Origin: Gordius sp. MW1 | Taxonomy: Eukaryota > Nematomorpha > Gordioida > Gordea > Gordiidae | Assembly: GCA_964036665.1 (NCBI GenBank) | Contig: OZ038528.1 | Location: 23,051,245-23,115,244 of the forward strand | Reading direction: 5' to 3' | DNA length: 64,000 bases | Shown here: positions 14,895 to 61,787 of the stretch, in pieces | Numbering within the stretch: position 1 is the stretch's first letter | Layout of the letters: each line of letters begins with the position of its first letter | Made by a program: the position numbers and the translations under genes | The notes under the pieces: model-generated | The model's database searches: none | What the model saw: the letters and a program-made list of their open reading frames with translations, nothing else | What the model was told of the DNA's origin: nothing

Positions 14895-17800
14895 ATGTTA
14901 TTATGCGAAATTTTGACTGACATATTTTTCGTATTGCTAGGTAAAAATACCTAAAATATCTTATTTGTAAATTAAAATATTAAATACATATTTAATTGAA
15001 CAGATCCGTAATTTTAATTTATTTTAAACTTTTACATTTTAAATATTTTATAATAGCACAAATTCCTTGGGCATGCATTAAAACAAAGGCCACCCCTTAT
15101 AGAAGGGGATTCTTTTGTGATGATCAGACTTTGATGTATCCCTATAAGGATTCAACAGTTAATAAGGCTGGTCTCATCTGTATTAACTTGTTGATTCCTA
15201 TAATCACAGTAAGCTTATTAGTATTTTGCTTAATGTTTGTCTTATTAAATTTCAATTTTATACTGCTGATCATGTTTGATTAAAAGTTTTTAAAAACATA
15301 TTTTATATGTCAATTTAAATAAGTGCTTTATATAAATTTATAATTCATTGTATATGAAATTTTCAATATACTTATTTTTAATAAACATTTTTAAATCAGA
15401 GTTGCAAATATTTCTTATTTGTGGCATTTTGTAAATTAATAAAAATTTGTGAATTTTTTAGATCTTGATTTTGGAGTTTGTATTATCTGGCATATACAAA
15501 CGCCGTAAAACAGATGAGGAAGCTGATCGTACAAAATCCCTTTTCTTTCGATTTGCCTTTAAAGCTCTCTGCATGTTCTTTATTGGGTATGCTGTCAATG
15601 AAGGTGTTACTGGTAAATTATTTTTATTTTATCATTAATATTATTTTGTTTCCAAACTATTGCATTAATATATACATAAATGAAAATTTGTTTTAAATGA
15701 TTTTCAAAAATATCAATACAAAAATGGCAAAAGATTAAATATAAATGTATAATGTGCAAAAAGAGGGTAAAATAAAATGGATTTTTTTGGTTTCACCTAT
15801 AATTTAAATTATTATAGCTCATATGAATATAATAAAATTGGTTTATTTAATTTTGGCCCAGATTTACTAGTTTATCATATCATGCACTAACTTTTATTCA
15901 TTATCTAAGCAATATATGATATCATTAACTTATTACCTAAATCTACCACCTTATCACAAATACAATATGCTTTATAATTAAAAAAATTTAACCTGCTGGC
16001 CAAATTGTGTAATCTCACATTAGGTTTTTAATAGAAGTACATCATAACATACTAGTGTTGTAAAAACGGCTGGGTTTTGTTTGGTCCACCTTTGGGTTTA
16101 GTTGACTAAAACTAAACACTCCAATTTGATCTGTATTTCTTAGTCGACCTCTAAGCTTAGACCAAATTTGACAAACATAACCCAGCCATTGGTTACAACA
16201 CCAGTCCAGTACATATGTAAGGCACACATGGTCGTTAGGGGAAAACAAAATTATAATTTTCGTCGAAATTTTACCCACCTTTTAAACTTATTAAAACCAT
16301 TACTGATCTATAATTTTGAGACTTTTACTCTAAATCCCAGGGTAATATTTCACCCCCCCCCCCATGAGCGTAGCCAGGAATGGATTTAGAGGGGGGCAAA
16401 ATGATTATTTTTATTAATTTAACCATAATTTTAATAAATTTTGAAGAATTTTTGGATTTAGAGGGAGGCATCCGCCCCACAGATCCACCCCCTGGCTACG
16501 TCTTTGCACCCCCCCCCCCCCCCATTCCCAGCCAAGTGGTATTTCGACAATTTCTCTAGCATCATATAGCAATAGATTTGAGGTTATTCTTTAATACTAC
16601 TAATAACTATCTAGCACCTCTCTGTTGTATCGAATTTCACGCACCTTTTGGAATGGCCTTTTAACGACCCTATTTATGCCAAAATTACGAATCAATAATT
16701 ACATTTTTGGGGGCTCGGGTGCGTTGGGATATTGCTAAGGCAAATAAAAGCTTTTACATCTATTTTATAGTTAATTAGCCACCCAAAATAGTATTTTGTT
16801 TATCAAGGGCTCATCTGCCTTATCAAGTCTAAAGATTTTTTTTATATTATAGCTAGAACTTGAAAACTTCGCCCATGCGTTCCTTAATAAAAGCTCATAA
16901 GCTAGAAAGTTAGATTGTCCCCCATCTTTAAAATTATTTTTTGCGCTATAATTTTCACTGAATGTTTATAAATTGATAAAATAATTAAAAAATAATCCTA
17001 ATTATTTCCTCCTATATTTCGATCGTAAAAATAACCTTTAGATTTAACGACTAAACTATTTCGACAAATGCGCATTTTTTTTAATAATAGAATATATTGA
17101 TTATGTATCTAATGTGGAAATAAGGTTTTAAAAATATTCCGGTTTTGGGTATTATGCAGAGAGGGCCCGATTTACGACGGGTAATAACCGCTAATCAAAT
17201 AATAATCTTTAATTAACATGCCATCTAGGGCAATCTTTTCAAATTAAAGACCAATTTTGCGAAATTTACCCCTATCACTTATTAACATGTGACTGGAAGA
17301 CAATAACAGACATACATAACGTTTTCGCTCTAATTGGGGCTAAAAGAGATAGATAGGAATTAATTTAGCCAAATTAGTCTTTAATTTAAGTATTGCCCTA
17401 GCCCCTAGCTAGATGGCATGCTAATTAGAGTTGTAATTATTATTATTTGATTCGCGGTTACCACCCGTCCTAAATCGGCCCCCGCCCTCCCTCTGTTCAT
17501 AATAGAAGAAATTGACTTTATTTTCTTAAATTGTGGGGGAAACTGTATTTTTGGCTCAAGATTTCTTAATGATATCCACATTTAAACCGGGTAAGGTAGG
17601 CAAAAATTAACCCCGCAAAAGTTTTAAGCCTAATCATTCATTAGTTTTTCACCCGAAACTAATCAATCGATAATCAATCGATATTCTTAAATTGATACTA
17701 CTAAACTTTTTTTAGCATTTTTAAAATTAAGATGATCGGCACTAGTGAGGAATGTGAAATGCGATATATCAAATATTACCATGGGATTAAGGTCGAGCTA

Positions 17801-20800
17801 GCGGGGGGCTGGATAGAAATTAATTATGCGAAAAAACATATGAAGGACACGAGAGATTGGGTCGTGGTATGTTAAGTATATTAGGAGGTATGGTGTGGTG
17901 CCTGCCCTTGAGTGCATTTCCCATGCAAAAAGTGTAATGTAGATTTGAAGGTTTGCCTAAGCTATAACGCCCGCCGTCTGTTATTTAGTGTGGAGGTTAA
18001 AATTTGAATTAACTTAAATTTTTAATATATATATGGGTTCGAGTTTGATTTTATAATGTTAAAATAAAAGTCTTTTTTTTCTATTAAAATGAAATAAATT
18101 ACCTATTTTTATTTTTAAAAACTAATGGAGGTTTATTTTTAAATGAATGTGTATGATAAATGCAAAAATAGATGAGATTAATGAGCAGGCATTGGAGCCA
18201 TAGATTGAAATATTGGATTTTATAATTTTCATGGTGATTTTCTTAGATTGATATAAAAAAAATTTTGGGGTATTAAATTTTTAGAGCACTTCGTTTAGTT
18301 AAATTAATATTTTATGGCGATAAAAATTGACCTCGAGACTAATCGGATTAAGGCTTTAGGACAAACTTTTATATTACAATTTTCACCTTTTTTTATAAGC
18401 CACAACTTTGCTTTTTCTTAAACGATATTTCATTATTAAATTGCTTGTGATTCCTTTTATCCATTGCAAAATATAGGATTAGCAGATTTTTTAATATAAA
18501 CAGTACCTTTCTCCATGGACGTAGCCAGGTTTTGGATTGGGGGGGGGGCAAAACATAAACTTTTTTAATTTTAAGGATTTTTGTATTGATTTTTTTTTGT
18601 CATTTTGGGGGGGGGGGCCTGCTACGCCCATGCCTCTCTCTTTTATAAGGTTGTTTTGTCACTTTACCCTCGCGCTATCTTTTAATTAAATTACGTTTTT
18701 CCCCACTTTACATTTTTGAACGAAGAAAATTTTAAAAATCTATTAACTTGGTTGTCTTAATTAAGTCGAACTATTCGACCTTGGAACGTTATGACACATA
18801 ATTTAATGCAAATAATAATCTGAGTTCGCGTGTGCATGTACGCTAAAGGAGAAAAGTTGAGATAAAATCTCGAAATTTAAGGGCCACTCAAAGTTATGAC
18901 CTTAAAACGTTTTAACGCGCGTCCGCTAAATTAATTTTTTTTATTATTTACGATCTTTTTTTTGCATTGCCTAAAACGCTTTCTTTGTTCCTAATCCTTA
19001 GTCGATTAGATAAGGTTGGAACTTGGAAGGTCATTCATTTCGTAACCATAAATTTTACATAATACATTGCAGTGTTGTTTGGAAAGCGGTCATTTCACAA
19101 TATTCTATAAAAGATTAAAATTACGTTAGTTTGAATTACCGCTAAATTTTTTAGTTTCAAAATTCATTATACTTCGGTACTGTTTTCTCTTAAAAAAACC
19201 CAAAAAGTTGCATTTTTACTTGGACAAATGACCTTAAGGAAATTTGTGCATTTGAGTCTTTTTATTCCATTGATTTGGACATTTAATTATAGAGGAGTAT
19301 ATGGTGGCTATTTCTAAACTATGGTTTTGTTGTCCGAATTACAAAGAATTTTTCTTTATTTAATTTGTTTTATTAAGTATTGCCTGAATTAAGAGGCTTT
19401 GATTGGCTTTTTCAAACTTGACTTTGTTGAAATTGTAATTTTTAAATCGTAATTAGAATGTTTAATACATAGACTAGATTGTATAACAATTTCTCCTACG
19501 TTTTTTCCCCAGAATTTTTGTATTATGTATGTTTTTGTTTGTTTTTGACTACAAATTCAAAAGTGTTGCACCGTAAAATATTTTTAAAATAAATCCAAAC
19601 ACCTTTTAAAGAATTTTCACGTTATTAATAAAAATTTTCGTCATCTTGGTTCGGTACACCGAAGCTGTTGTATCAGTCAACTTTTATCTATCTTTTTAGT
19701 AGTGTCCAAAAAGAAGTGGGTTTGGTTTGGTCAACCTTCGGTTCAACTAAGACATGGTCGACTCTGTCTGTTTTCAAATTTTTAATTAGGCCTATAGGCT
19801 GACTAAAAAAACAGATTGGTCGACTAAACAAAACCCAACCGTTTTTACAACACTACTTTCTAGCAAATTAGTTCCCCTTGAACCCGATCATACTTAGTTT
19901 ATGTATCATTACACATATAAATTTAGCCCAATGAAATCATTGTAATCAAATTAATTTGAGCGTCACTTAAAAACATCTCCAACGTCATGTCAAAATAAAA
20001 TTTAGGTTTGTTTTGTTTAGATACATATAGTAGCAGGTGGATAAAGTAGTGTTGTACAAACGGATGGGTTTTGTTTGGTCGGCCTTTTGTTTTAGTAAAC
20101 TAAGCATGAACAAACCAAATTTTTTGGTCTGCTTTTCTTAGTCGACCACAAGGCTTAGTCGAAATAAAAAAACAGACCAGTGTCGACCGTTATTCTTAGT
20201 TAAACCAAAGATCGACTAAACAAAACCCGACTCAGCCGTTTTTACAACACCAGTATTAACATATACCCAATTTTTAACGTCACATTTTCCTTTTCGATAA
20301 ATAGCTACCATGAAATTTGTGATCGGAAGGTTGAGACCTAATTTTTTCGATGTATGCCGACCCAATTATACCCGGCCCTGTACTCATCAAAGATATTACG
20401 CCGCTTACCAATGTCAAGACACTAACTTGGAACGCATCAGAAATGCTAGGTAAATATCTTTGCCTCATTTCAATACCTTTCAAGTGATAATCTCATAACT
20501 AATATCTTAATAATTTGCTATGAATTATAAAAATAGTATTCCTTTAACACAATTGACCGGAATTTAATTAGGATCTTTTGATTTGGCGGTTAAGTTGCTC
20601 CTTTAAATTTTGTTATATAAAAAAATATTGTTATCAGCTTAAAATGATACATAAGCTATGCAATAATCGTGTGCAAAATAGAATTAATAATAAAGTATTT
20701 TTGAAATTCGCCAAGAGCCAGGCTTAATTGTATTCTTTAATAAAATACAAATTTTTTAAGCATAATTAGATTTATTAATGCGAGAAATGAAAACACTGCA

Positions 20801-22577
20801 TCTCAAAATCGTTTATTTTTGCTACACAACACTTATCTAACACATGATGTTCTAGTCCGATATAGTAAGCTTGCAATCATAGACTAATGAGAAAATAAAT
20901 TTTAAGAGCAGCTGATCATTAAAATATATTCGTCGGGAGAGGTTTTTTCAATATACGCACTTCTGTAATAAAAAATTACAATGATCGCTTCGGAAAAAAT
21001 AATGAAAACTTGTAAGGATAATCTTTCTCTTTAAATATTTTAACCAAAATATTAGTGTTGGAGCTTAAAAGTCTGTAAAACAAGCTTTGAAAGCGCACGA
21101 TAGTCACTAAGATGACATTAGACTAAGGTTGGAAAAACGGCTGGGTTTCGTTTGGTCGACTTTTGGTTTAACTAAGGCAAACGGTCGACTCGGTCAGTTT
21201 GAAAATTTTGACTGAGCCTAGTAGTGGTCTATTAATGAAAATAGATCAAGAAATCCATGGTTTGTTAATGTGTAGCCGCCCGACCAAACAAAACCCAGCC
21301 CTTTTTACAACACTATTGCCAATCTATTATACTATATTTGTCTAAGCATCTCACCCATATTATTGCACTCAAAATTTGGAGATTGTCTTTCCCATCGCTG
21401 CACGCGACTTCTTGCATGTACGCCATGACGTTCATAGCCTTGTACCTGCATTTGAGGGCCCGGCTGTGTCGCCTGCAATCATTCAAAGTCTTTTTCGAAG
21501 CCATGTTCATTCTCATTGCCCTGTACGTTAGCGTTACCCGCATAGCCGACTACAAAAATCACTGGAGCGACGTCCTCGGGGGTGTAGCCATTGGCGCCTT
21601 GTTCGGAATCATTTTTGTACGTAGCACCCCCTCCCCCACCCATTTATAAATTCTCATGGGCGTAGCCAGGATTGGATTCAGAGGGGGGGGGCACTAATGA
21701 TTTAGGGAGGGGCAAAATGATATTTTTTTGAAAGTTTAGCAATAAAAATATATTTGTTAATTAAATAAAGTATAAAGAATGAAATAAATAAATGATTAGT
21801 GTACTGTCATTTTATAGGCCTTTATTGTCACAACATTCCATTCCTATTTTAATCATAACCACATCCCCACACACTTATACTATTTTCTAGAAATAATGTA
21901 TATATAGCAAAACAACGTTTGCCGGGTCAGCTAGTAATTATATAAAATTTTAACGAATTTCTAGATTTCGAGGGCCATTCCTTGGCTACGCTTATGGAAA
22001 TTCTGTAAATATCTATTTGTTTGCAATGACTTTATAGAGGGGAAGGAGTGTTGAAATTACTTTGTTAGGGTGTTGTGCTAGATTTTTGTATGGATTTGAA
22101 ATTATTGGAGATTTACACTTCTGCCTAAGATGTTTTGATTGTCCACCTGTTGGATTTGGACTAGTAGGCTGTTGTGTTAGATTATTAATATTGGTTTTAT
22201 TTAAAAATTAATATCAAAATCTAGCGTTTTTTTAATTAAGTAGCTACTAACATGTTTTGGTTTAACTTTTGATCGGCATATTATCTAGACCAGATAACGA
22301 GTGTTGTTTATGAGGAAGGAATTAGTGGTCAAATGAAATACCTTAACAATTTTTTGCGTTTCATGTATATATTTAGATTTTAAAATTGATTGTTTTATAA
22401 CTAAGGATATAAAAATGGTATCAATTTGCTTGTTAATCTCGATTATTTTAAAATTGGTAGGCCAATTGTGCCGTGAACAATGTATATTCCTACCTGGACC
22501 GCAAAGTGATACCGCGCACAGTTATGGTACCAGCCAATCCGGACAATAATCAACCCATTCGGTACATTGCGAAATGA
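14895..22577 (+). CDS. Phospholipid phosphatase (PLPP/PAP2) paralog 1, catalytic residues altered
   Basis: Exons: 14895-14940, 15057-15208, 15462-15612, 20305-20449, 21382-21616 and 22461-22577 (TGA), phases continuous, 281 residues. The start MLLCEILTDIFF opens transmembrane helix 1. GFFCDDQTLMYPYKDST is the conserved first loop of lipid phosphate phosphatases; further helices lie near 50-75 and 95-115. The first motif is intact (K120, R127, P128 in KFVIGRLRP). The second reads PSLH (169-172), where the family has PSGH. The third reads TR...DYKNHWSD: R218 and D228 remain, but position 224, the nucleophile His of the family, is Asn. Family members dephosphorylate phosphatidic acid, LPA and S1P at the outer membrane face. 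The exon layout mirrors the paralog at 55273, so the gene is intact but probably catalytically dead. A candidate ATTAAA poly(A) signal lies at 22634-22639. The weak acceptor before 21382 is the least certain border. Confidence 0.87.
16053..16203. mobile_element. MITE, TAGTGTTG hairpin family, copy 3
   Basis: This 151-bp copy lies in the long third intron of PLPP paralog 1. Both terminal repeats are recognisable (TAGTGTTGTAAAAACGG; ACAACACCA at the right). The flanking octamers no longer match. Confidence 0.8.
16363..16506. mobile_element. MITE, CATGGGCGTAGCC family
   Basis: The left end CATGAGCGTAGCCAGG and right end CTGGCTACGTCTTTG flank G-rich and C-rich segments. The element is inserted in or near poly-C tracts (CACCCCCC on both sides), so the target duplication cannot be read unambiguously. 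Confidence 0.75.
17157..17495. mobile_element. Hairpin MITE, CAGAGAGGG family
   Basis: About 340 bp with long inverted repeats: CAGAGAGGGCCCGATTTA at the left pairs with the CCCTCTG-ending right side, and the pairing continues through ACGGGT, TAACCGC and AATCAAATAATAAT. ATTATG/CATAAT outside the ends extends the pairing. No protein coding was seen, and no second copy was noticed in the window. Confidence 0.7.
17496..18513. other. Intronic stretch, nothing recognised
   Basis: Part of PLPP paralog 1 intron 3. It contains no ORF with family resemblance and no clear repeat ends. Confidence 0.4.
18514..18632. mobile_element. MITE, CATGGGCGTAGCC family, short copy
   Basis: The 119-bp element has ends CATGGACGTAGCCAGG and CCTGCTACGCCCATG. 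The flanking octamers CCTTTCTC (18506-18513) and CCTCTCTC (18633-18640) agree at 7 of 8 positions. Confidence 0.85.
18633..19699. other. Intronic stretch, nothing recognised
   Basis: AT-rich part of PLPP paralog 1 intron 3. No coding segment or bounded repeat was found between the two MITEs. Confidence 0.4.
19700..19855. mobile_element. MITE, TAGTGTTG hairpin family, copy 4
   Basis: The 156-bp copy has a diverged left end (TAGTGTCCAAAAAG) and an intact right end (TTTTTACAACACTA). The target duplication is clear: CTTTTTAG (19692-19699) and CTTTCTAG (19856-19863), 7 of 8 identical. Confidence 0.87.
20047..20252. mobile_element. MITE, TAGTGTTG hairpin family, copy 5
   Basis: This 206-bp copy ends only 52 bp before exon 4 of PLPP paralog 1, so it contributes part of the acceptor-side intron. 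The flanking octamers ggataaag and gtattaac agree at 5 of 8 positions. Confidence 0.83.
21124..21315. mobile_element. MITE, TAGTGTTG hairpin family, copy 6
   Basis: The 192-bp copy has left end TAAGGTTGGAAAAACGG and right end TTTTTACAACACTA. It ends 66 bp before exon 5 of PLPP paralog 1, whose acceptor has a poor polypyrimidine tract. The flanks no longer match. Confidence 0.8.
21655..21996. mobile_element. MITE, CATGGGCGTAGCC family, carrying an inserted segment
   Basis: Ends CATGGGCGTAGCCAGG and TTGGCTACGCTTATG, with flanks TAAATTCT (21647-21654) and GAAATTCT (21997-22004), 7 of 8 identical. The unit is more than twice the length of its relatives. About 21740-21940 is foreign sequence ending AACGTTTGCCGGGTCAGCTA, which resembles a Helitron-type 3' terminus. 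Confidence 0.83.
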
Positions 22578-34105: not shown

Positions 34106-35215
34106 CCTTTAAACGGGCAAGTCATTAATGTTGTCATCAATTGGTAAGACGTGAAGTCTGGCAACTGGTCTTTTGATAAGACCTCCAATAGTTTTGATAG
34201 TAGCTACCCGAGACTTGGAACATAACAAAGAATCCCATTTTTTTACAAACTGTTCCGGCAATGTTTCGTCCCATGACATTTCAAGCTTATAAAGTTGTTG
34301 CATGAATAACTTTTCTCTTGTTAGAACTGGACCTATTAATCCAAGCGGATCAAAGATTTGCGCTTTTTTTGATAAAATCCTTCGTTTTGACATTCCCTTG
34401 TCCTCGACTTCCGACGTTAGGTTGAATCTGATATTGTCAGTGAGCGGATTCCAAAATACTCCTGTTGTGTTTGTCTAATGGTATAATGTCATCACTGGAT
34501 ATTGTCGACAAATGATCGAATAAGGAAGTTGAGTTTGTGGCCCACTTCCTTTACTTAAAACCGCCCTTAATTAACAGTGTTTGAATTTGAAGGATAATTT
34601 CCTTGGCCTCAGGAATATTAGAAGCTCCGGTTAGTAAATCATCCACATAGAAATCCTCCTTAGCCTTGGAAGATCCAATGGGAAACCTTATGGATTCACC
34701 TTCTGCCAATTGTTGAAGAGTCTTGGTTGCTAAATAGGGAGCCGCCGAGGTTCCATAGGTGACAGTCAAGAGATCATATGATTTAATTGGATGTGACTTG
34801 TCATCTCGCCATAATATTCTTTGTAATTGGGTATGTTTCGGGGTTCTCTGAATCTGTCGGTACATCTTTTCTATATCCGCAGTAATTGCAATGTTGTGTT
34901 TGCGAAATCTCAAGAGAATAGGTATAAGGTCTTGTTGAACCTTAGGACCAACCATAAGAGTTTCATTCAAAGAAACTCCCGAAGAAGATTTAGCCGAGCC
35001 ATCAAAGACTACTCTCAATTTAGTGGTGAGGCTATCTAGTTTGAAAACTGCATGATGGGGTAAATAAAACACAGGGAGTTCAGAGTGTTTATTACAATTT
35101 GTGGGAATGAGATGGCCTAGGTTTTTGTATTCATGAATAAATTTGGTGTATTCTTCATATAACAGTTTGTTTTTTGTCCTTCTCCTTATCAAAATTCATC
35201 CCACGATGTCTGGTT
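34106..35215 (-). pseudogene. BEL/Pao retrotransposon pol fragment (reverse transcriptase)
   Basis: On the minus strand, 35192-34551 is open for 213 residues: LRVVFDGSAKSS, ADIEKMYRQI, TYGTSAAPYLATKTL and the catalytic YVDDLLTG are BEL/Pao reverse transcriptase signatures. After a frame change, 34393-34109 continues with RILSKKAQIFDPLGLIGPVL and MQQLYKLEMSWDE, the conserved segment that follows the polymerase in this superfamily. Protease, RNase H and integrase are absent. The fragment is shut off at about 34106 by a poly-C tract. Confidence 0.88.
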
Positions 35216-35383
35216 GGTAAACGGAGCGGAGTACATTAGAGTTCATACTGCGTACGCGATGTTTACTAACACATATCTTTTTCCCTTAGCCTACATTCCT
35301 CTCTTTCTCCTTGTGCTTCGATAGATATGGGGGCGAGAGTGGAAGAGATGGAGAAAGGGATAGATTGAGGTGTTAGTAAACAT

Positions 35384-37300
35384 CAGAGGTCAGATTTGTT
35401 AGAATTTTTCTGCCCGAACCCGGTGTAATATCCATTTCCACGACGCTCAAAAAAATCGACATGCCAATCAAAAATTTTTCTTAAAACTTGAAATTAAATT
35501 TCTATGGGCTAAGACAAACGTCAATCAACAGATGTTTTTAGTTACTAGCCCATAAAATTCACAAAAAATATTAATTATAATTCAACCATGGTTTACAAGA
35601 TTAATTAAAACTTATCATATTTGTAATTAAAATTTTTCATATTTAGCATTCTGCATTTACTTCTTTTGATATGTATTTTTGAGCTTGAGCTGATGATCAT
35701 TGATCTATGTTTATAATTCCTTTTAAATGGCTGATATAATTTATAAAGTCAATATTGTATTTGGTACATTTAATAACCTAAGGGATTGAGTGAGTATTTA
35801 AATACATTAGCTAATGATCATTATATCTGATCTATGTTTATAAGCCTATCCTTTTAATTGTAAAGCTAATTGATGAACTCAATATTGTATTTGGTACATT
35901 TATAATAACCTAAGGGATATCTGTTGAGCTTGAGCTAATGATCATTATATCTGATCTATGTTTATAAGCCTATCCTTTTAATTGTAATTTTGGTAGGGCT
36001 AATTGATGAACTCAATTTTGTATTTGGTATATTTATAATAACCTAAGGGATATCTGTTGAGCTTGAGCTAATGATCATTATATCTGATCTATGTTTATAA
36101 GCCTATCCTTTTCATTGTAATTTTGGTAGGGCTAATTGATGAACTCAATTTTGTATTTGGTATATTTATAATAACCTAAGGGATATCTGTTGAGCTTGAG
36201 CTAATGATCATTATAACTGATCTATGTTTATAAGCCTATCCTTTTAATTGTAATTTTGGTAAAGCTAAATGATAAACTCAATATTGTATTTGGTACATCT
36301 ATAATAACCTAAGGAATAGCTGAGTTAGTACTTGAATACATTGAGCTTGAGCTAATGATCATTATATCTAATCTATGTTTATAAGCCTATCCTATTAATT
36401 ATTTTTATTGTCTATAAGCTTAAAACTAAGGTAAAGTTTATAACTTAGACTAATAAAGTAAAAGATTTTTTAATAAGCTTCAAATGATTATGTGCATTTT
36501 TATACAAAACTAGAGATGAAAATACAAATGCTTGAGCTTGACTAAACTGATATTCATAATTTTCTTGATTTAACCTAAATTTATAAAATACATGTGAAAA
36601 AAAAAGATTTGATAATATACTTAAATGGCTAAATTGATAGTTTGTTAGTGATTCTCTAAATTTTAATTTATAATTTAGATAATTATGCATAGTAATTATT
36701 TGAAATATTTTGAAAGTCTTGTGTCGTCATTTTAGTGTCTTCAAAAAAAATACATGTTTTTGTGCCAAAACTAACCTATTGAGCTTTTAGGAAGATCACG
36801 TGATATGGCATATAACTCGTTATTATGCCATATTAACCAATAGGAATGTTCAACTGAGCGTCGTCGTTTTTTAAATGACGACGTTTCAGATCATTACACC
36901 GGTCCGATATTATAATTAATCTGCCCGCCCGAGCCCTTTTATGTGTCTGCCCGGCAATGCCCGAATTATCCCAGCTGCCCGGCCCGAAATGGTGAGTTTT
37001 ACAATTTTTCGCACTAATATCGTTTTATTTTTTAAAAATTTCATCTTAATTTTTGATATTTTTTTAAATGAGAACTAGGATTAACAAACATTATGAAATC
37101 AATTAAAAAAGTGGCAAAATATACACAAAAACAATATAATCCATTATTTTAAAAACAAAATTGAGCCCGAATTGCCCGAATCTTGTTATGATGCCCACCC
37201 GGGCCCGCCCGAAAGTTAAAATTTACGGCAGTCCGTCCCGACCCGTGGGCCGGGCGGGCAGGTTCGTGCAGCTGGCCGGGCCGGGCAAACCTGGTCTCTG
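35384..37300. mobile_element. hAT element, CAGAGGTC family, with internal minisatellite
   Basis: The 1917-bp element begins CAGAGGTCAGATTTGTT and ends CCTGGTCTCTG. It has exact 8-bp duplications GTAAACAT (35376-35383 and 37301-37308). CCCG/CGGG-rich subterminal sequence is present at the right end. The inside carries a tandem array (35682-36410) and no transposase. Confidence 0.88.
35682..36410. repeat. Tandem repeat, about 115-135 bp unit, six copies
   Basis: Units share GAGCTAATGATCATTATATC, GTTTATAAGCCTATCC and ATAACCTAAGG. The middle copies, near 35927, 36058 and 36191, are almost identical over 130 bp; the outer ones are more diverged. The array lies wholly inside the hAT element at 35384. 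Confidence 0.85.
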
Positions 37301-37333
37301 GTAAACATAGCGTGTGTATTATGTACTCTAATG

Positions 37334-38637
37334 CAGAGACCAGATTGCCCGGGTCCTAAATTTTTTTTTCAGGCGGGCACGATAATAGGATTCGGGCAAT
37401 TCGGGCTTAATGCAATTTTTTAGATAATGTATTATTTTGTTACTTTTTTATTTCATTGATATGAAAATGCTGAAAGAGTTAAAAAAAAACTTGATTCGCC
37501 ATCCGTCCCCAAGTTATTTCTATAATTTTTGCCCGAACCACTCTATTTCCATCAAGTCCCTATCCCTAGCTACGTTCATGGAAAGGATTGAAATATTTAT
37601 ATTTATGTAGCCCTTTCATTGTTCGTAACTCACATGTGCCGTCTATACATAATACAAAAGCGTCATGCCCAAATTGACACAATGTATGCAAGTGTTAAAT
37701 ATCATTCTAATATCATTTTATTTTTTTAAGAAATCTTATTTGGTTTAACAAAGCTTTCCCATTTCACCTTTATTATTCCCTTATCACTCGTTGCTATCGC
37801 TAAGCTATTACTTATTTTTACAATAATAAATTTCTATACCTTTATTTTATTGCTTTAAATTAAAAAAAATTTCCATAAATTACATTTAAATTATATTGAT
37901 AAATTATTGTTTTTTTTAGAAAAAAAAAGTAAGTTCTAAGAGCACAGATTGACTAATTGAACTAATTTTATTCATTGAGAAGTTTTTATAGGGTAGGGGC
38001 TTAAACGGGTTAACCCAAAAGGGGAGTATAATTTTGTTTATTGTAAGATTATTTATAAAATATATATACTTTAAACTTAATTAAAAATTGCTGCATAAAT
38101 ATTTTCATGGACATCGGCTGCATTTAATTAATATTTTGCTGTTATATGATTTGTAAACGTTCTAACATGTTTGTACCTAAATGCAGTAGCAATTAATATA
38201 TTAAAATATTGTGACCTAGAGCGGTTTTGCCAGTGATAACAATATTTTAAAGAAACCCTGACCAACTATTTTAGAAGTAGCAAATACTAAGCTTTTTTGA
38301 CCTATTAGAATTAAAATTAAAGATCAAAAGTTTCATTTAGAAAAATCATTTTACTTTGAAATAATATAGGAAATTAGATTTTGCCCGGGATAATAAAAAA
38401 TTGCTATATTTGTTTTATTCAATATGCCATTAATTAAATATATTTTAATAGTGGTTGAAAGAATTTGAGATCGCAAAATTTCGGGCCTAACAGGCAAATT
38501 TAATATTTCGGGCAGGTCTAATGTTTCGGGCGGGCCCGGGCGGACACTAGAAGATTCGGGCGGGCTCGGGTGGGCAATGAGTTGAAATTGAATCGGACCG
38601 GGTTCGTGCATAAAATTCCTAACAAATCTGACCTCTG
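37334..38637. mobile_element. hAT element, CAGAGACC/CAGAGGTC ends, unmatched flanks
   Basis: The left end is CAGAGACCAGATTGCCCGG; the right end finishes AATCTGACCTCTG. GGGCGGGC-type subterminal sequence is present at both ends. The flanking octamers CTCTAATG and GCTTTACC do not match, unlike the other full copies. The right end abuts the start of block U2. No coding sequence was recognised. Confidence 0.75.
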
Positions 38638-39204
38638 GCTTTACCTGTCATGGAAAATCAAAAATTGTTGGAATGGCATCTTCTCTCAATTGATGATATT
38701 TTGTTGAAGTTGGATATAACATGTCCCGGATAAAATGATAAGAACAGATCCTAGAATGGATTGATGGTTGGAATTCCATGTTTTGAGAAGCTGAGGATTT
38801 TTCATTGGAAACCTAAAATTAAAAAAAAATTATGTAAAATTGTAAAAAAATTTAAAATATATTAACGATTGTTACTTATACTTACTTATGATAAGAATAT
38901 TGTTTATCCCGAGTTTTTCTATGAGAACAATATGGAACAGCACAAAATGGAATAGTTGAAATACACCAGATGAGCTCCTTTAAATGGCGGATAATTTGAC
39001 ACACAATTTACCATATGGAATATATGGCATGAGCAGTCTATGTAGTCTATGTGTACAATATAAGGTAGTGAATGTTATAATTTTATTTTTTCAGTAGCCT
39101 AACACAATTTACCCTTAAATATCTCTCCAAAATTTGGCAAGTTTTTATCGAGCAGTTTTTGAAATAGAGAGTGTTTTATATGCCCGGGGTTTTCCAGGAC
39201 CCAC

Positions 39205-39290
39205 CTTCCATACTACGATTATTAGAGGAAAGACGAACTCGACTATCTACCAAAATCGTCGATGATTTGTTATCCTTTACCTAATAACTA
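39205..39290 (+). pseudogene. hAT transposase C-terminal remnant (U2)
   Basis: The frame LLEERRTRLSTKIVDDLLS ends at an early stop. It matches the U1 remnant and the fuller copy at 63360-63521. Confidence 0.7.
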
Positions 39291-39664
39291 TAAAAAATAT
39301 AATAAATGTTTTTTTATATACTGACTGAAATGATAGGGATGAAATAAAAAATTCGGGCTCAATGGACACATCGGGCAGAGCCGGGCGGACACTTAAAAAG
39401 GTTCGGACCGGCTGGGCGGTTTACTTAAAAAATTGAACCGGGCCGGGTTCGGGCAAAATTTTTAAACAAATCTGACCTCTGCCATCCATCCCGATTACGA
39501 ATGATATTTGCAAAGGGCACGGAGGACGCAATCCGGCCAAACGCTCCACTACTATTCTCACTATGCACCAAGGTGCGATTATCTACATCTACAAAATAAA
39601 ATAAAAAATATACACATTAGGCAGAATAACATAACAGTTGTTCGATATGCCAGTTTCTATTTTT

Positions 39665-40798
39665 CCAGACTCTAATGACTTAACCTGGTAAATCTTGTTA
39701 CCTACATGACCAACTATTCTTGAAAACTCTCCTCACCTAGGCTGACCTAAATAATTTTTTGACCAAACAAGATCATCAATATTATATTTGGTCTTGCCTG
39801 TTAAATGTTGTTTTAAACTGCTATCCACCAAAAAATCAGGCGGAAAACGTAAATTATGACAAAAAAAAACTCACCAGCTATTGGCAAACGTCCAAATCTA
39901 GGTGTCATGCTATGATATAATCGACATGACCATGTACCCTCTTTATTTGTCTGAGCCAGTTCTAACCATTTTTTAACCATTACTACGTCCCTCTCCACCT
40001 GTCCATTAGAACCAGGATGATACGGCGGCGTTAAGAAGTGAGTTATCTTCCAATTATTACAAAAATCTTTAAAATCGACCCTTGTAAACGATTTTCCGTT
40101 ATCGGTTACTATAAATTTCGGAAAACCGTAAGAGCCAATTAATTCTTTTAAAAACATTAGAGTAACCTTTGTAGATATATTGCGTACTAGTATAAATTCA
40201 GTCCACCCTGAATATGCGTCTACCAATAATATATACCTCCTTTTATTAAATTCAGAAAAATCAACATGAATTCTACTCCAGGAACCATTTGCACGAGGCC
40301 ATTGAGCCTTACATGTTTAAAACTACAAGAACATTTTAAATATCTTTATAATTTGTTAAATATTTGCTAATTCAGCAGTATTCTATGTACTTTTGACAAT
40401 ATCGTCAAGGTCAACAACTTTTATTAAATTAACAAAATTATTATTTATAATAGATATCTCCATAGTTATATTAAGCGCACTCATTCGTGATAAAACATCA
40501 GCCATATGATTACTTTTACCTTCTCGATATTTTATTGTTAATGAAAAATTATCAAGAGTTAATAACCATCTCTCAAGTTGAGGCGACATTAAAAATTCTG
40601 TATTAATTTTATCAAATAAAGCTACTAATGACTTATGATAGGTATGTAATGTAAACGCCTTGCCAATTAAATATTCTCGACATCGTTTGAAACCATTGCA
40701 AGAGCTTCTTCCTCTATGACCGAATAATTAAGTTCAGCCTTAGTAAGCTTGCGAGAAAAATAAATAACGGGATGCTCTATTTCATCTTCTATTTGACA
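39665..40798 (-). pseudogene. Ty3/gypsy pol fragment (RNase H tail + integrase), U2
   Basis: The integrase core is open for 137 residues (40226-39813): VDAYSGW, FIVTDNGKSF and HPGSNGQVERDV give all three acidic catalytic positions. RNase H segments occupy 40589-40383 (LERWLLTLDN, KYREGKSNHMADVLSRMS) and the left part near 40760 (YFSRKLTKAELNY). The HHCC zinc-binding region between them is gone, and stops break the frame, so no functional polyprotein can be made. Confidence 0.87.
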
Positions 40799-41300
40799 TA
40801 GAGCCCTGCACGGGCCGCCCGAAACCCGACCCGAGCCCGGCCCGACCCGATAGGGCTTTGGGGCGGGCTCGGGCAGAATGTAATAAAACAATTGGGGCTC
40901 GGGTCGGGCCTTATGAGGCAACCCGACCCGAGGCTCGAGTCCGGCCCAAATTGAATAAAGCAAACTAATCTTTTATAAAATATGATTTAAACAAACTCAC
41001 CTCGATATTAAATAATTATCTTCGTACACCATACATAATTTTTCCAAGCTTAGCTTTTTTGCCCTGTCTATTATAATATTTTGACCTAAATTGCAAATCT
41101 TAATCTAGTATTTAAAGGATGTTATTTAAATGCTCAGTAAAATGTGCTCAGTATTTTATTAAAGTGCCCATTAAAAATTCAAAATTACTCAGTAAATTAA
41201 CTTTAAAATGCTCAGCTTTAAATTGAAAAATGCTCAGTATTTTGCTAAAATGCTCAGTAATATAAAATCATAATTTGTGATATTAATTTATTTTGCACTT
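40799..41300. mobile_element. Partial TAGAGCCCTGC hAT element (U2)
   Basis: It begins TAGAGCCCTGCACGGGC with CCGACCCGA repeats. Past the end of the shared U1/U2 block it continues with CTCAGTA phrases at 41130-41270, like the subterminal repeats of the complete 26680 element. The right terminus is missing; the LINE fragment follows. Confidence 0.6.
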
Positions 41301-41459
41301 ATATTTTATAAATAATATTTTTTTCTAAATGTATATATTGTTTTGAACGTAAGAATATTATACAAACGAAGTGTAAAAATTGAAAAAATATAAGAGCGGG
41401 TATAAAAAAATATATAATTAAAAAGCGTCGCATGTGTCGTCTAATAAAAGTGGCCAGCT

Positions 41460-42990: not shown

Positions 42991-43070
42991 CCCCAAACTT
43001 TAGTTATGATATGCAACCGTAACTTAAAATAATATTTTAATTGGTATACAATTTTTTTAAATAAATTAAG

Positions 43071-43390
43071 AATTTGCCCCCCACCCCTCCCATTTTTTGT
43101 CCCGTTGGTTTAGACCTCCCCCCTTATTTTTTACCCTCTTTCTAACCAGAGGGGAAGGGGTGATTTGCCCCACCCCGTTCTTTTTTACCCCTTTCTCACC
43201 TGGGGGGAGGGAGATGATTTGAACCCCCCCCCCCTTTTCACCCTCTTTCTAACCAAAGGGAAGGGGGTAGTTTGCCACCCCCTTCTTCTTTACCCTTTTT
43301 CTCACCTGGGGAGAGGGGGGATTTGACCCCCGCTTTTTACCCCTTTTCTCAACCGGGGGAGGGGGTAATTTGCCCCCCCCCCAACAGCAA
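43071..43390. repeat. G/C-skewed minisatellite, about 57-65 bp unit
   Basis: Five degenerate units share CCTCTTTCTAACC or CCTTTCTCACCTGG, then GGGGAGGG and GATTTGCCCC. They alternate strong C-runs and G-runs. The array lies between the LINE remnant and a hAT-like right end (CTAGCTACGCGCCTG near 43525). No coding is claimed; open frames here follow from the repeat. Confidence 0.75.
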
Positions 43391-43568
43391 CACCAAACAA
43401 AATGATAGCGCCTTGAAGCTTCGCATACTTTTTACGCGAAGTTTATTTTTGTTACATTGTAAATAATAGTGTCGACATTTTTTTTGAATTTTTCCTGGCT
43501 CTTGATAAAATCCTAGCTACGCGCCTGTAAAAAGGTAAATGAAAAAAAAGATTGAATTTGGTAGATAT

Positions 43569-44183: not shown

Positions 44184-44281
44184 TATTCAGACTCGTCTCG
44201 GTCTTGAAAGAAAAATCTCGTCACGGGAGCGATTATGATAATCTCGATCTCGTCTCGGTCTAGGAAAATCTCGGTCTCGTC

Positions 44282-46643: not shown

Positions 46644-47129
46644 GTCTCGTCTCATCTAAACGAAATTCTCGTCTCGACTTTTTTGAAAAAAATTTATACG
46701 AAATAAAATTTTGTCCTAATTTATTAAAATTATTAAGAAAGTGTTAGATATCCAAACTTTTATATTTTTGAAAAACTTTAATTCACAAACTTTTTAAAGA
46801 TTTAGCGCGACACGACATACAATTTAAGGATATGAACTAGATAAATTTTCTTTGGAAGGTAAAAACTATAAATAAATTTGAAGTATAGGGCGAAAGGAAC
46901 GCTTTTGTTTAATATTTAAAATAGCATAATTATGCATTAAATCTAGAATTTATTGTGGTGTTTATTGTCACTTTTTAGATTTTAGTTTAGACCAATACTC
47001 TTTTGCTTTTGAGTGTTTTATAGCTCAAACTTATATGTAATAAATATACTAACTAACTGCTAGATTAAAGACTTATTAAATTTTAAAATTTTAGCAAATC
47101 ATAACATTTGTATGAAATTCACTGTGTCA

Positions 47130-55272: not shown

Positions 55273-58200
55273 ATGATTCGGTATGTAATAGATCTATTCT
55301 TTGTTAGTTTGGGTAAGTTTTATATATTATTTTTGTTGTAGCTAATATAGTGAAATATTTGCTTTAATATATATATTGATTATTTTTGTAATTTAGACTA
55401 ATATTTTTAATTTACATTTTAGCACATGTTCCATACATGTATATGAAAGCCAAGTTGCAGCCGTATAAACAGGGATTTTTTTGCGGGGATCAATCATTAA
55501 TGTATCCTTATAAAGATTCAACTATCACCTCACCATTTTTAACTGGCATCAATATGCTCCTACCCATAATAACGGTTAATATTTGATTTACAATTTTATG
55601 TTTCTTATCACTATCGTAAACTTATTATATTTTTAATGAGTAAAGATAATTTATAACAATTTAATTAAATAAATCATAATGTATAATTTTTAAACACTTT
55701 CTATTAGATTATTGTGATTGAAGTTCATTCTGCTCATACTAGGACAAACAAAGTAAACAATGTCAAGGCAAATAGCAAAAAATCTCTTGCAATAATTCTT
55801 TACCAATTTTTTTCAGTATTTTTTGTGGGCTATGGTATGAACGAGAGTACAACAGGTGTGTTATAAGCAGCAATTTAATGTGATTAAAATTTAATGCATC
55901 ATAATTTAGATATATAATATATGTAAGTTAGTTATTATGCCAAAACAACTTAAGTATAAAGTTAACGTGTATAAATCATTTATCCATTTATTAATAACCT
56001 TAACTTGGATGGATGTTTTTAGATTTATTTATAGTAAGCAAATTGAATAATTTTTCAATGCATCTTATTTACTCTTAGATATAGAAATCATCAGATAGTG
56101 CGATTAACAAATTAATTATGTTTAGTACACCTCCAATCTATTGTATCATTGATGAGTTGTTTCTTTTAACTTTTTTTGATAATGATATCAGAGTTCAGAT
56201 TTGTTTAAATTTTTCTACCCAGCCATGCACAGATCATTAAAGCTGCCTAGCTCAAAATGATAATTTCTATATTTGTAGCGGTAATTTGGTTATATATTTG
56301 CAATATTTTTAAATTTAATTCTGCATTTTTTTGGTTAAAAATTGAGAAAATAATGCATTATATAAAAAAATTCCAATTAGTTCGAATTTTGTTATGGTGC
56401 TTGCCCAGGCCCACCCAAAAATCACAATAGTTGCTCGGCCCAACCTCAGTATTGTGGTCTTTGAATGCCATGCTATTAGAATATATTTATTAGGGTGTTA
56501 CTGGAGGGGGGCAATAATGATTTAGGGAGGGGCAAAATGATAATTTTTTGAAATTTGAACCATAACTTTAATAATTTTTTCGATTTAGAGGGAGCAGTCG
56601 CCCCTCCCGCCCCCCCCCCCTTGGCTACGCTTATGTGTGTAAAGATATCTTATCGAATTAATTGCGCGGTTTGAGACATTCGATCCGTTTTTGGTGTATA
56701 TTTCAAAAAATGATTAGTAAAAAGGCAATAATTTGGATACGCTCGAATTATGGAAGATTGTAATATTGAAGAAATGTGGCCCATAATTATATGCTTAAAA
56801 ATTGAATTTTTTGAACTAGACCACCTTATTGCCAAATTAAGTGATGGTCATTTTATAATTTCCTACAATCAATTCATAAATTAATTATCTACATTAATAA
56901 TTGATATGGGAAATGATTATAGTTACACTGAGTCACTAAGGCGTGTTATAAAAAGGGCCGGGTTTTGTTTGGTTGAGCTTTGGCCTTAGTCGACTAAACA
57001 TAAACTGACAAAGGTTTTTGGCCTGTTTTTCTTAGTCTTGAACAACTTTTTATATTTGATTTCTTATTTTTAATGATAAAATTGTTATATAGAATTACTG
57101 AAATTTGCTGTTGGCAGACCAAGACCTCACTTTATCCACGTTTGCAGGCCCAACATCATGCCCGATTGTTTTCACCATTTTTACAATGGCACAACACAAT
57201 GCCTTGGTTCTGATTTGGTTCGAATTAAAGATGCACGGTAACGGCATACTCCAATCAATTTTGTTATCTTTTAATCCTTGCAAATTTCTAATTTTTTTTC
57301 ATCAATATTAGATTTTGATGATTGATATACGAATTAGGATAACAAATGCATTTTTTTTTAAACTATGGGAATTTGACTACATATGTAAATACTAACCCAT
57401 TTTGGAGGTTTATTTTTGAATAGAGGATTTAGGTTTAAACTGGTTGTCTAGAGACAGTTTTCTGATAGCATAAAATTCAGGGGTTTGATCAAATTCTCTT
57501 AATATATATTTTTCTCAATCTTTTTTATATTCTGTGTCTGTTTTTTTACCGTTTATAACTTTAAATAAATAAATAAACTAATGAAAAATACATAATGACT
57601 TACTGTGAATCTTTTGTAAGTGTATTTGTTGCTAACAAGTGGTAAGGTTAGATTGATTATATGAGTAGGAAAAAAAGCTCACTTCTTATTTCGTTTTCTG
57701 AATACTGGTATAGCGTTATAGAAAGGAACATATATGGTTTATTCACGGAAAACATTAATGATCACCAAAAACCAAAACTATTTATCGCGAGTCTAAATAA
57801 TGGGATGGGTTGGTTAATATTCAAATGAGGGTTGACTCTGCGTGCGTATATTTCTCTCCGTGTCACGACCACTACAGATACTCCCCCTCTAAAAAAAAGA
57901 AAAAGATATGTATACATCAAAATTTTTAAGCAGTAAATTTCCGTGGAGTAGTTATAGTTCTCCCATATCTAGACATCCGTTGTTGAACAGGTAAAGTGCG
58001 ACTATCCTCCTCTTTTGTTTCGATCCATGCTGGTTTAAGTCTATCAATAGATATGGTTTGTTCTTTGTTATCTTTTGTCACTTTAAAAAATTTCTTACTC
58101 CTTTTTACTACCTTAAGCGGTCCATCGTATGGGGGTTGTAAAGATTTTCTGACCGTGTCATTACGTACAAAAACATACTCTGATGTTTTTAAATCATTAG

Positions 58201-61200
58201 GGATATATTCCTTCTTATCATGTTTTCTGGTAGGGCAGAATTTTAAATTTTGCATTATTTCTTTAAGTCTAATTACATAACCTGGTTTAGATGATTCTAT
58301 GAACGATTTTTGAAAAAATTCCCCTGGTAGCCTTAACGTCGTCCTATAAACCATTTCCGAAGGAGTGTATCCGATATCTTCTTTGATTGTCGACCTAATG
58401 CTGAGAAGAATTAATGGTAGTGTTTCACTCCATTTTGTTGTATCTTCCTGTGTCATGATGGAAGCTTTTAACTGCCTATGGAACCGCTCAACTAACCCAT
58501 TATAACACGGCTGATAGGCTGTAGTTCTGATATGGTCAGATCCTAATGTGGATGCTAATTCTCGGAATAAACTGGATGTAAATTGAGCCCCTCTCTCAGT
58601 AGTTATAACCTGTGGAACACAAATTGGCAACCCAGTATTCAATAAATATTCGTGCTAAATTTTCCGCTGATGTCTCGTTGATTGGTATTGCAATTGGCCA
58701 CCTCGTAAAGCGATCGATGGCTGTAAAAATATGGGTGTAGTGAGATGAAGGTGGTAATGGGCCTACCACATCCAAATGCACGTGACTGAACCTCTCGTAG
58801 GTGTCGTCAAAAATGCCGGGTGAAGTGATGGTGTGTTTGTGATTTTTGACATTTAATGCGTTCTCTTGTCCAATTCCGGATATCTTTGTTCATTGATGGC
58901 CACACAAAACTGCGGGTAATGAGTCTTTGATTTGTCGCCATGTCCCTGGGGGCTCTTTTGGGACCATGTGTAAGGGGGATGACCATCTATGTGAAGGTCG
59001 TATTATTCCTAATCTCCTCATTTCTTCAAATTCTTTTTTTGCTATTTGAAATTTTTCGGGGTTTAAACGTCGTGGAGAACAATGGATCGCTGGTCCTTTT
59101 GTTATTATATGGTGTTTGGTATTATGTTTCACTTTGTCATTAAAATCCGGTGGCTTGGTAATATCCGGAAATTGTTTTAATATGGAGTAAAAATCATTAT
59201 TTTGTGAAATTGGGCTGCTAATGGGATTAGTTATATTTGATACTTTTAGAGAAAAATTTTGTGGACTAATTAGGCGTTTATTTTTAATATCAATTATTAA
59301 ACCAAAATATGATATAAAATCAGAACCTAATATAGGTGAATGTACATCTGCTATCAAAATTGTCCATTTGAAATCTCGTTTTAAACCTACATCTAATGAC
59401 AACGATATTTTCCCAAAAGTATTTATATCGCTCGAATTTGCTGCTTTTAAACATATATCGTTTAGTGTTACTTTCATTTTAGTGGTAGGTGATATTACAC
59501 TGATTTGCGCTCCAGTGTCAATCAAATAGCGGAGCCCTGATATTTTGTCAAATACGTAGAAAAGGCGATTATTGTTGTTATGGCCGGATCCAGCTATCGC
59601 CTTTACTGGTAGGCCTGCCTTTTTAATCCTTTTCCAAAATAACATGGTTGAACACATTTCCTGGCGTTTGATCCCCAGGTGTTATGGTACCAGCACCAGG
59701 GTCTGTCGCTCGAAATCCCAGGTGGGCGAAAAGGGGTCTGGGTTTGACCCATATTTTCTAATGTCCTATTTAGAGCAGATAAAACATCTGTTAGTTCTTT
59801 AGGGTATGCATCGGTGGAGTGTTTTTTTGGTTATGAATGTTATTAACATAATTAGTTTTTTTGGCCAGTACGATGCGCTTGGCTGTTTCCGCCTATTTCT
59901 CCAGTGCAGTATCTTCAGTAAACGAGACTAATATGGGAATTAGTTCACAAGGTAATTTATTGAGCAAGAGTTCCTTTAGAATCTTTTGGTCAAGAACGTA
60001 TGTTCCCACTAAACTCTTCATGTATCGCAAAAGCTGAGATGGAGATCTATCCCCTAAATCCACTGCCGTTAGGAATTCCATCAATCTTGATTCATCGGAG
60101 TCGCCTACCCTCTTGATAAGTGCTTGTTTGAGTTTCTGAAATGGTTGATCAGGTGGGACATTAATGATAAATCCTCCACTTCCTCAGCGATTTCGGGAGG
60201 TAATGTCTTAAGAATATAACCAAATTTTGATTTCTCAAAGGTAATTCTTCTTGCCTGAAATACGGCTTCTGCCTGAGCTAGCCAAATTCTAATATTTCTG
60301 TGGTAAAATGTGGGTTTTTCAGTTGGATAGTTGCTTCACATCCCTCTTTCTCTGTAGAATTTTCCATTTTGAAAAGAGATGATTGTTTGCGAGCAATAAC
60401 TAATTAATTCGTGAGATTGTTGGAGGGAAAAAAGAACGGGGTCACCATATTATAGCGTTAAAGAAAGGCACATATATGGTTTATTCACGGAAAACATTAA
60501 TAATCACCAAAAACTATTTATCGCGAGTCTAAATAATGGGATGGGTTGGTTAATATTCAAATGAGGGTTGACTCTGCGTGCGTATATTTCTCTCCGTATC
60601 ACGACCACTACACTGGAATATATTTACTAATTTTCAAAAATCCTATCTAACCACTTGTTATTAATAAGATTAACTAATGTTCTTGGATTTTTTTTCAATT
60701 TACTAGCTACCAAATTTTATATATACTTCGAGATTTAAGCATATATATATAAAATTTATTTTACGAACAAAATAGATTCTTTTTGTACGATACAACTTTA
60801 AAGCCTTTGCCGACTCTTAGCCCCCATTTTAGCCGATGATGATATAGATTTTTATATTTTACCAATATATGTTTATGTGACTTCGTTTTCGTACAATTAC
60901 ACTTTTTAATTATCAAATGCAAAAAAAATATATATATAATACGATTACTCAGAAAATCGTTTCCATCGGGTCACGCATCATCATCCATGTATAGCATGGC
61001 TTTCGCAACCCTATACCTCCATTGCCGACCAACACCCATGTTCTCATCACTACCACCCTCCTGCAAAATATTGTACGAGCTGGGCCTCTTGACCGTTAGC
61101 CTCTACATCAGTGCTACGCGAATTTCGGATCATAAACACCATTGGGGAGACGTTATTGCTGGTATCTTGCTCGGAGCTACTTACGCCTTAATTTCTGTAA

Positions 61201-61787
61201 TTTTTATTTTTCCTCGTTATAAATTTGATTATGATGTGAAAGGAATAATAGTTTATTCGAGTCAGGGTGAGGTTTGGCTTGGATGGGAGTTTTTTTGTTT
61301 TGCTACAAAGAATAGACATTACGATCTGATAGGGACTTGATATCATTCATTATATGCTTTGCAGGATTTTACTAATCAATTTACGCCTGAGTGGAATGAA
61401 GGCTTTTTAAAGGTAAATTATATTTAAACGTGCTGCCACTGCAACTGATCAATCACTGATTAAAACAATCGGTGACACATTTTGAAAGGCAAATATTTTT
61501 GATTTAATAATTTTTTTGAATCTATATGAAAGAACTCGATAAACTTTACGGATTTTTTATCACAATTTTTTACAGCATCGTTTAAAAGATATCATAATTT
61601 GGTGGTTATATTGATGAAAATGTTGTTTTAATGGTATCACTAGGCGAACTTTGCTCTGAATTTGGTGGAGAATCTAGAAAAGAAAAATGGATATGGAATT
61701 GAAGTTTCGGTTAATCACAAATTTCACAAAAGCAAAATTGTGAGATCGCGCAAATTATCTGCATCGCCCCAATACGATATTTTGTAG
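55273..61787 (+). CDS. Phospholipid phosphatase (PLPP/PAP2) paralog 2, intact
   Basis: Exons: 55273-55312, 55423-55574, 55708-55855, 57093-57237, 60953-61196, 61365-61412 and 61644-61787 (TAG), all GT-AG with continuous phases, 306 residues, within the family's usual 280-320. The start MIRYVIDLFFVS opens transmembrane helix 1. GFFCGDQSLMYPYKDST is the conserved loop. All three catalytic motifs are present: K117, R124 and P125 in KFAVGRPRP; PSGH at 166-169; and R218, H224 and D228 in TRISDHKHHWGD (Thr for the usual Ser). Family members hydrolyse lipid phosphates such as phosphatidic acid, LPA and S1P, with the active site outside the cell or in the lumen. A basic tail (HKFHKSKIVRSRK) ends the protein. 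Intron 4 holds an LTR retrotransposon. A candidate ATTAAA lies at 61876-61881. Exons 2 and 4 match paralog 1 in length (152 and 145 nt). Confidence 0.93.
56189..56463. mobile_element. Degenerate hAT MITE, CAGAGGTC family
   Basis: Ends CAGAGTTCAGATTTG and GTGGTCTTTG, about 275 bp apart. The flanks AATGATAT (56181-56188) and AATGCCAT (56464-56471) agree at 6 of 8 positions. CpG-type decay has turned the usual CCCGG ends into CCCAG and CTCGG. It lies in intron 3 of PLPP paralog 2. Confidence 0.75.
56508..56635. mobile_element. MITE, CATGGGCGTAGCC family, left end lost
   Basis: The right end CTTGGCTACGCTTATG and the internal phrase GATTTAGGGAGGGGCAAAAT match the copy at 21655. The left terminus is missing. 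Confidence 0.7.
56943..57045. mobile_element. Half copy of the TAGTGTTG hairpin MITE
   Basis: GTGTTATAAAAAGGGCCGGG and TTTTGTTTGGTTGAGC match the left half of the family; the right half is absent. It ends just before exon 4 of PLPP paralog 2. Confidence 0.6.
57926..58860 (-). pseudogene. Gypsy-3 integrase
   Basis: HLDVVGPLPPSSHYTHIFTA and IDRFTRWPIAIP carry the first Asp. After a frame change, 58642-57926 (238 residues) gives VITTERGAQF, where Glu replaces the usual second Asp, and YNGLVERFHRQLK with the catalytic Glu. The C-terminal part PPYDGPLKVVKR and IDRLKPAW is the chromatin-side tail common in this group. It is broken by one frameshift. Confidence 0.85.
58890..59657 (-). pseudogene. 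Gypsy-3 protease and start of reverse transcriptase
   Basis: The 255-residue frame begins with a truncated gag end and gives the protease active site LIDTGAQISVISP, then ILGSDFISYFGL. The start of reverse transcriptase follows (CSPRRLNPEKF, MRRLGIIRPSHR, WSSPLHMVPK, PPGTWR). Directly after GTWR the sequence jumps to a region that precedes integrase, so the polymerase and RNase H cores are deleted. Confidence 0.85.
59820..60370 (-). pseudogene. Gypsy-3 gag (capsid) remnant
   Basis: A 63-residue frame at 60084-59893 reads MMEFLTAVDLGDRSPSQLLR, then LLLNKLPCELIPILVSF, a capsid-like stretch common in retrotransposon gag. Further gag-like sequence (AEIRIWLAQAEAVFQARRI type) is visible toward 60300-60200. 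Stops and frameshifts interrupt it. Confidence 0.7.

Follow-up and report, generated by a model that had tools for sequence, protein, structure and literature searches.

Does a gene that keeps the full exon structure of a lipid phosphate phosphatase, and that has lost residues on which the phosphatase chemistry depends, encode a pseudoenzyme retained for another task, or is it on its way to decay? This question is raised by a member of the PAP2 (wunen/PLPP) family, named g1 here, in the genome of the nematomorph Gordius sp. MW1. The analyzed window is a stretch of 64,000 nucleotides of contig OZ038528.1 (positions 23,051,245 to 23,115,244 of the forward strand, or G000:C2:23051245-23115244), part of a 211.8-Mb genome in 12 contigs, and it also holds a second family member, g2. 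We consider it likely that g1 is an intact wunen/PLPP (PAP2) gene whose product has lost the phosphatase chemistry and is kept for a non-enzymatic job.

The gene model of g1 was built by hand using splice signals and homology. It covers positions 14895-22577 of the plus strand and comprises six exons with GT-AG borders that give 846 nucleotides in frame, 281 residues and a TGA stop (Table 1). No stop, frameshift or broken splice border was found in the six exons, in agreement with the original prediction, made from the letters of the window, that they splice in frame and that the gene looks intact. The lengths of the four inner exons (152, 151, 145 and 235 nucleotides) are identical in g1 and in a paralog on the same contig, p24. 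The PAP2 profile matched two places in the window, one per gene (21278-21628 in g1 and 60918-61214 in g2). A mutually exclusive exon carrying a working motif was sought in the g1 introns and rejected, as the profile, by which the best candidates are scored, revealed none.

The PF01569 profile of the PAP2 family matches g1 with 84.1 bits (cut-off 27.2; E-value 9.5e-24), spanning positions 2-128 of the 130 in the profile, and the match to the PLPP1 sequence has an E-value of 9.5e-46. Of the three motifs of the family (C1, C2 and C3), g1 contains C1, K(X6)RP, in the form KFVIGRLRP (K120, R127, P128); it also keeps S170 and H172 of C2 and R218 and D228 of C3, and has an N-glycosylation sequon (N137) between C1 and C2. 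The C2 motif of active PLPPs, PSGH, is read as PSLH (FPS-L-HA), codon 171 being CTG (Leu) at the position of Gly. The C3 motif, SR(X5)H(X3)D, is read as TR(X5)N(X3)D (DYK-N-HWSD), with codon 224, AAT (Asn), at the position of the PAP2 nucleophile His. Both altered residues had been recognized originally. The Thr of the C3 motif is also present in g2, p24, a further paralog (p26) and PLPP2. An alignment of seven rows was made, in which PLPP1-3 are represented by the segments given in the HMMER output and not by whole chains; five PDB sequences were at hand, two PLPP1 variants, 9l0u (Ala at the nucleophile) and 9l0o (Ala for the C2 His), being unused, and two further loci, one decayed (L025) and one a distant PAP2 protein (L027), were left out. 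Both the C3 His and the C2 Gly are retained in all six other aligned homologs (g2, p24, p26 and PLPP1-3). Judged by its sequence, g1 descends from the PAP2/wunen family and fails two active-enzyme motifs. An AlphaFold2 model of g1, computed from an alignment of two rows only, has a predicted local distance difference test score of 40.5.

Asparagine cannot form a phosphohistidine. Catalysis by PAP2 enzymes is described as beginning when the C3 His attacks the phosphorus (PMC7413402, PMC7564803). The motif positions of N224 and L171 correspond to H207 and G162 of E. coli PgpB, for which mutants are reported in PMC7413402: H207A showed neither complementation in vivo nor detectable activity on either of two substrates, and G162D had no activity on one substrate and 0.03 (in the units of the published table) on the other and failed to complement, its side chain being expected by the authors to protrude into the cleft. 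In these mutants of a bacterial enzyme the new residues are Ala and Asp, whereas in g1 they are Asn and Leu. By analogy, which is strong in the case of the His, g1 is very probably catalytically inactive, as had been proposed. Asn224 would make the formation of a phosphohistidine impossible and the side chain of Leu171 would be directed into the substrate cleft, so that hydrolysis would fail for two separate reasons.

The neighbor g2 has canonical motifs (PSGH and DHK-H-HWGD) with the nucleophile His likewise at residue 224, exactly as first described. By position and strand it is the tandem sister of g1; the nearest paralog by identity, however, is p24, located 3.2 Mb away (49.6% of 268 positions for g1-p24 vs 40.6% of 271 for g1-g2; 46.0% of 278 for g2-p24). 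Thus, the picture of a dead copy next to its active sister holds for the adjacency and the motifs of g2, whose activity is predicted from these motifs, and not for the highest identity.

Another locus of the genome, L025, is a g2 duplicate lost to decay and serves as a local decay clock. Among 861 aligned exon bases, 62 differ between L025 and g2 (92.8% identity, 7.2% divergence), and L025 has one indel of three bases and six whose length is no multiple of three; the indels in exons 4 and 5 cancel in total length, which is not the case in exons 3 and 6. From the L025 rate and the stop-prone codons of g1, in which 108 of 2529 single changes yield stops, the upper limit for a neutral stretch in the history of g1 is about 0.026 substitutions per site (95%), a generous bound in which the whole g2-L025 divergence is charged to L025. 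LWL85 puts the silent distance between g1 and p24 at 1.9, and under NG86 it is saturated. In a tree of the seven aligned rows, which had no PLPPR row, g1, g2 and p24 are grouped against PLPP1-3 (support 92/94, not starred), the branching order among the three being not settled. The end branches are 0.98 (g1), 1.16 (g2), 0.25 (p24) and 2.05 (p26), the last being so long that the placement of p26 is unsure. Of 39 columns invariant elsewhere g1 keeps 32, compared with 90 of 191 variable columns at which it matches p24 (Fisher test, 4e-5); its departures from columns at which the other six proteins all agree are S40T, Y99F, G155D, G171L, S220A, H224N and A240G. A decaying pseudogene was the outcome that the original prediction had set against its own reading. 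To judge by these comparisons, g1 does not look like one, because it has no frame lesion, its end branch does not exceed that of g2 in length and most invariant columns are kept; they show constraint on the g1 lineage.

Several observations weigh against a retained, inactive g1. Departures at otherwise invariant columns are more frequent in g1 (7 of 39) than in g2 (4 of 36) and p24 (2 of 34), and they are not enriched in the catalytic core (2 of nine core residues among the 7 of 39; probability of two or more, 0.52). As far as the alignment tells, the catalytic core of g1 is no longer specially protected and the scaffold still is. For most pairs the ratio of nonsynonymous to synonymous substitution rates came out saturated or could not be computed, and it was not used as a test: NG86 was saturated in five of the six pairs, YN00 gave values in none of the six, and LWL85 gave values in three (0.23 for g1-p24, 0.32 for g1-p26 and 0.46 for g2-p24). 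The Asn224 change could also have occurred recently, in a lineage otherwise under constraint. In addition, PgpB G162A is reported to have low activity (0.8 and 0.2, same units) and to complement some strains, and the Gly alone is thus not always essential (PMC7413402).

The surplus of departures in g1 would fit a pseudogene at the beginning of its decay that lost the catalytic residues because constraint had gone. We regard this as improbable: p26, which has canonical motifs, departs at even more columns (11 of 43, none within the nine core residues), g1 is free of stops, frameshifts and splice losses whereas L025 had already acquired its six frame-breaking indels at 7.2% divergence, and a neutral time of the bounded length would hardly accommodate at least three substitutions at two catalytic sites. 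The same minimum bears on the suspicion of a sequencing or assembly error. Asn is one base from His, next to a run of A, but Leu is at least two bases from Gly, at another site and with intact flanking codons; a single read error therefore cannot account for both changes, and we give an error almost no credence. There is also very little to be said for g1 being still an enzyme that uses another nucleophile, for example the neighboring His225, or catalyzes another reaction. His225 adjoins Asn224, the remaining core residues are intact, and the PgpB H207A mutant does not probe the case of g1, as the next position in PgpB is Trp (W208; PMC7413402); yet the neighboring His is present beside the true nucleophile in all six aligned homologs and is hence no special replacement, and Leu171 would still hinder.

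Two explanations assign a more definite role to an inactive g1, and both are possible though rather doubtful. In one, g1 is a phosphate-binding trap, whose pocket without a nucleophile holds lipid phosphates uncleaved. The residues R127, S170 and R218, motif counterparts of R104, S161 and R201 of PgpB, are kept, and the melting temperature of PgpB H207A is raised by 17.1 C, which the authors ascribe to phosphate binding (PMC7413402); against such a pocket stands Leu171, at the position of PgpB G162D, the side chain of which is thought to block the cleft, and the PSGH loop of PLPPRs is likewise expected to be blocked according to a review (PMC9520309). In the other, g1 is a regulatory subunit that co-assembles with the active paralogs and tunes their activity or location. 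The chain counts of the solved PLPP1-3 sequences (eight chains in two entries for each of two sequences, four chains in one entry for each of three) would fit tetramers, and LPPs are reported as homo- and heterodimers (PMC11471602, citing Burnett 2004 and Long 2008), but the same source states that Drosophila Wunen forms homodimers only and does not associate with Wunen2, that catalytic-domain mutations blocked association and that activity was independent of dimerisation.

If g1 is instead, as we favor, a retained protein with a non-enzymatic job of a broader kind, the least certain steps are those that follow the loss of chemistry. The protein would still reach the membrane and act there, as vertebrate PLPPRs do, and it may bind or shield lipid phosphates or partner proteins, thereby modulating lipid signals that the active paralogs destroy. 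Domain-only annotation would label such a protein a phosphatase.

Table 1. Exons of g1, its sister g2 and other PAP2 loci of the genome
Feature	Position	Strand	Characteristics
g1 exon 1	14895..14940	+	ATG start, GT donor, open frame
g1 exon 2	15057..15208	+	GT-AG, 152 nt, as exon 2 of p24 and g2
g1 exon 3	15462..15612	+	GT-AG, 151 nt, as in p24
g1 exon 4	20305..20449	+	GT-AG, 145 nt; intact C1 KFVIGRLRP and sequon N137-Y-T
g1 exon 5	21382..21616	+	GT-AG, 235 nt, as in p24; altered C2 and C3, codons CTG and AAT
g1 exon 6	22461..22577	+	AG acceptor, in frame; C-terminal tail and TGA stop
g2	55273..61787	+	six exons (55273-55312, 55423-55574, 55708-55855, 57093-57237, 60953-61196, 61644-61787), 290 residues; splice model and translation
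p24 (L024)	C2:26.29 Mb		six exons of 61/152/151/145/235/120 nt; canonical motifs
p26 (L026)	C2:14.87 Mb		canonical motifs; the model stops short at both ends (without true start and last exon)
L025	C8:7.0 Mb (G000:C8:6995500-7001500)		decayed g2 copy
L027	C5		distant PAP2 protein

The paralogs were collected by genome searches with the PAP2 profile, g1 and p24 as queries, which score best candidates only, and the family list may be incomplete; a search of the same genome with PF14378 gave no matches. Lineage-specific duplication of wunen genes is a known phenomenon, as described in PMC6698658: Drosophila melanogaster has seven wunen family members and Lepidoptera have three wunen and three wunen-like genes, while the other insects examined there have one of each. 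Scans of sequence collections of viruses, bacteria and archaea, from which little was expected, gave no outside orthologs: with g1, two pattern matches and no relatives were found among viral contigs, and with the g1-family alignment 85 pattern matches and no relatives among genome contigs.

Within the g1 introns, similar short elements were seen by eye at 16040-16210, 19700-19870, 20050-20250 and 21130-21310, with AAACAAAACCCA-like stretches and TTTTTACAACAC ends, possibly a miniature inverted-repeat transposable element. To the left of g1, WD40 repeat exons were found at 416-2630 of the window (two frames scanned), and a further frame up to 3939 is similar by eye. Between g1 and g2 (34551-50565) lie retroelement-like frames with a strong RNase H match, an aspartyl protease match barely above the cut-off and a reverse transcriptase match below it; retroelement insertions may have separated g1 from g2. 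Directly upstream of g2, an inverted repeat at 53509-54966 (arms of 488 and 108 nucleotides, 99% complementary) looks like a young foldback element. Intron 4 of g2 contains several minus-strand frames at 57926-60335, one of which matches an integrase profile below the threshold (rve_3, 18.1 bits vs 26.5), and a second scanned frame had no profile match; these are probably a retroelement fragment.

Some observations concern the mitochondrial sequences of the assembly. A near-complete COX1 copy at G000:C8:2829490-2830827 scores 408.2 bits vs 410.5 for COX1 on the 14.8-kb contig C12; C1, C3, C4 and C5 carry other, partial copies. Residue 20 of COX1 on C12 (L028, translation table 5) is encoded by AGG at a site where animal COX1 usually has Lys (HKDIG); AGG may mean Lys in the C12 mitochondrial code, on the strength of one codon only. 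ARAGORN, run with the bacterial code on 10 kb of C12, found no transfer RNA.

Among known systems, g1 resembles wunen and PLPP1-3 in its family (PAP2, PF01569), the C1 motif K(X6)RP, the Ser and His of C2 and the Arg and Asp of C3, and differs from them in the replacement of the nucleophile His by Asn, the C2 Gly by Leu and Ser220 of C3 by Ala. Its six-exon layout is common to p24 and g2 of its own genome. The original prediction drew a parallel to the vertebrate PLPPR group. PLPPR1 reads PSQHAT and TRITQYKNH, with changes at the same two positions as in g1. Against this fragment the C2-C3 stretch of g1 scores 100, compared with 100 for g2, 105 for PLPP2, 130 for PLPP1, 140 for PLPP3, 92 for p24 and 85 for p26, which shows no special nearness of g1 to PLPPR1, and the comparison is a lead only. 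The parallel is plausible as convergence, and it is weakly tested with this fragment as the yardstick. An orthology of g1 with PLPPRs was rejected as the main reading, given the intact clamp residues and its grouping with p24 and g2 in the tree of PLPP rows described above. Another candidate for comparison, PLPP7 (NET39), is presumably a member of another PAP2 branch and is likened to g1 by description only. It is described as a PAP2-family protein inactive via loss of critical residues (PMC7564803).

The PLPPRs (PLPPR1-5, also PRG or LPPR) are defined in PMC9520309 by substituted catalytic residues, a feature shared by g1; according to this review they have no lysophosphatidic acid (LPA) phosphatase activity and yet alter LPA signaling. 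Mutation of Ser198 and His200 (C2) and Arg246 (C3) in PLPPR1 is reported there to trap the protein inside the cell and to abolish filopodia, and g1 keeps the counterparts of all three, the His and the Arg being 46 positions apart in both proteins. The phosphate-binding residues, unnamed in the review, are said to be severely disturbed in PLPPRs, whereas by our assignment they are kept in g1 (K120, R127, S170, H172 and R218); g1 also has a short C-terminal tail, unlike PLPPRs. Expression of PRGs is called vertebrate-specific in PMC9053830, and PMC9520309 names nematodes as the first animals with PLPPR homologs, so an invertebrate PLPPR is possible in principle. No title among the matches listed announces an invertebrate PAP2 pseudoenzyme, and absence from print is not claimed. 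Dead PAP2 proteins are already known from PLPPR and PLPP7. Tentatively, g1 may be an independent invertebrate counterpart of PLPPRs that lost catalysis convergently at the same two motif positions and kept the phosphate clamp, acting as a non-hydrolytic sensor or sink of lipid phosphates opposed to the active paralogs. If this proposal is true, a second, independently evolved dead member with an intact phosphate clamp would, in comparison with PLPPRs and the active paralogs, allow binding to be separated from steric blocking in the way that PLPPRs act without catalysis.

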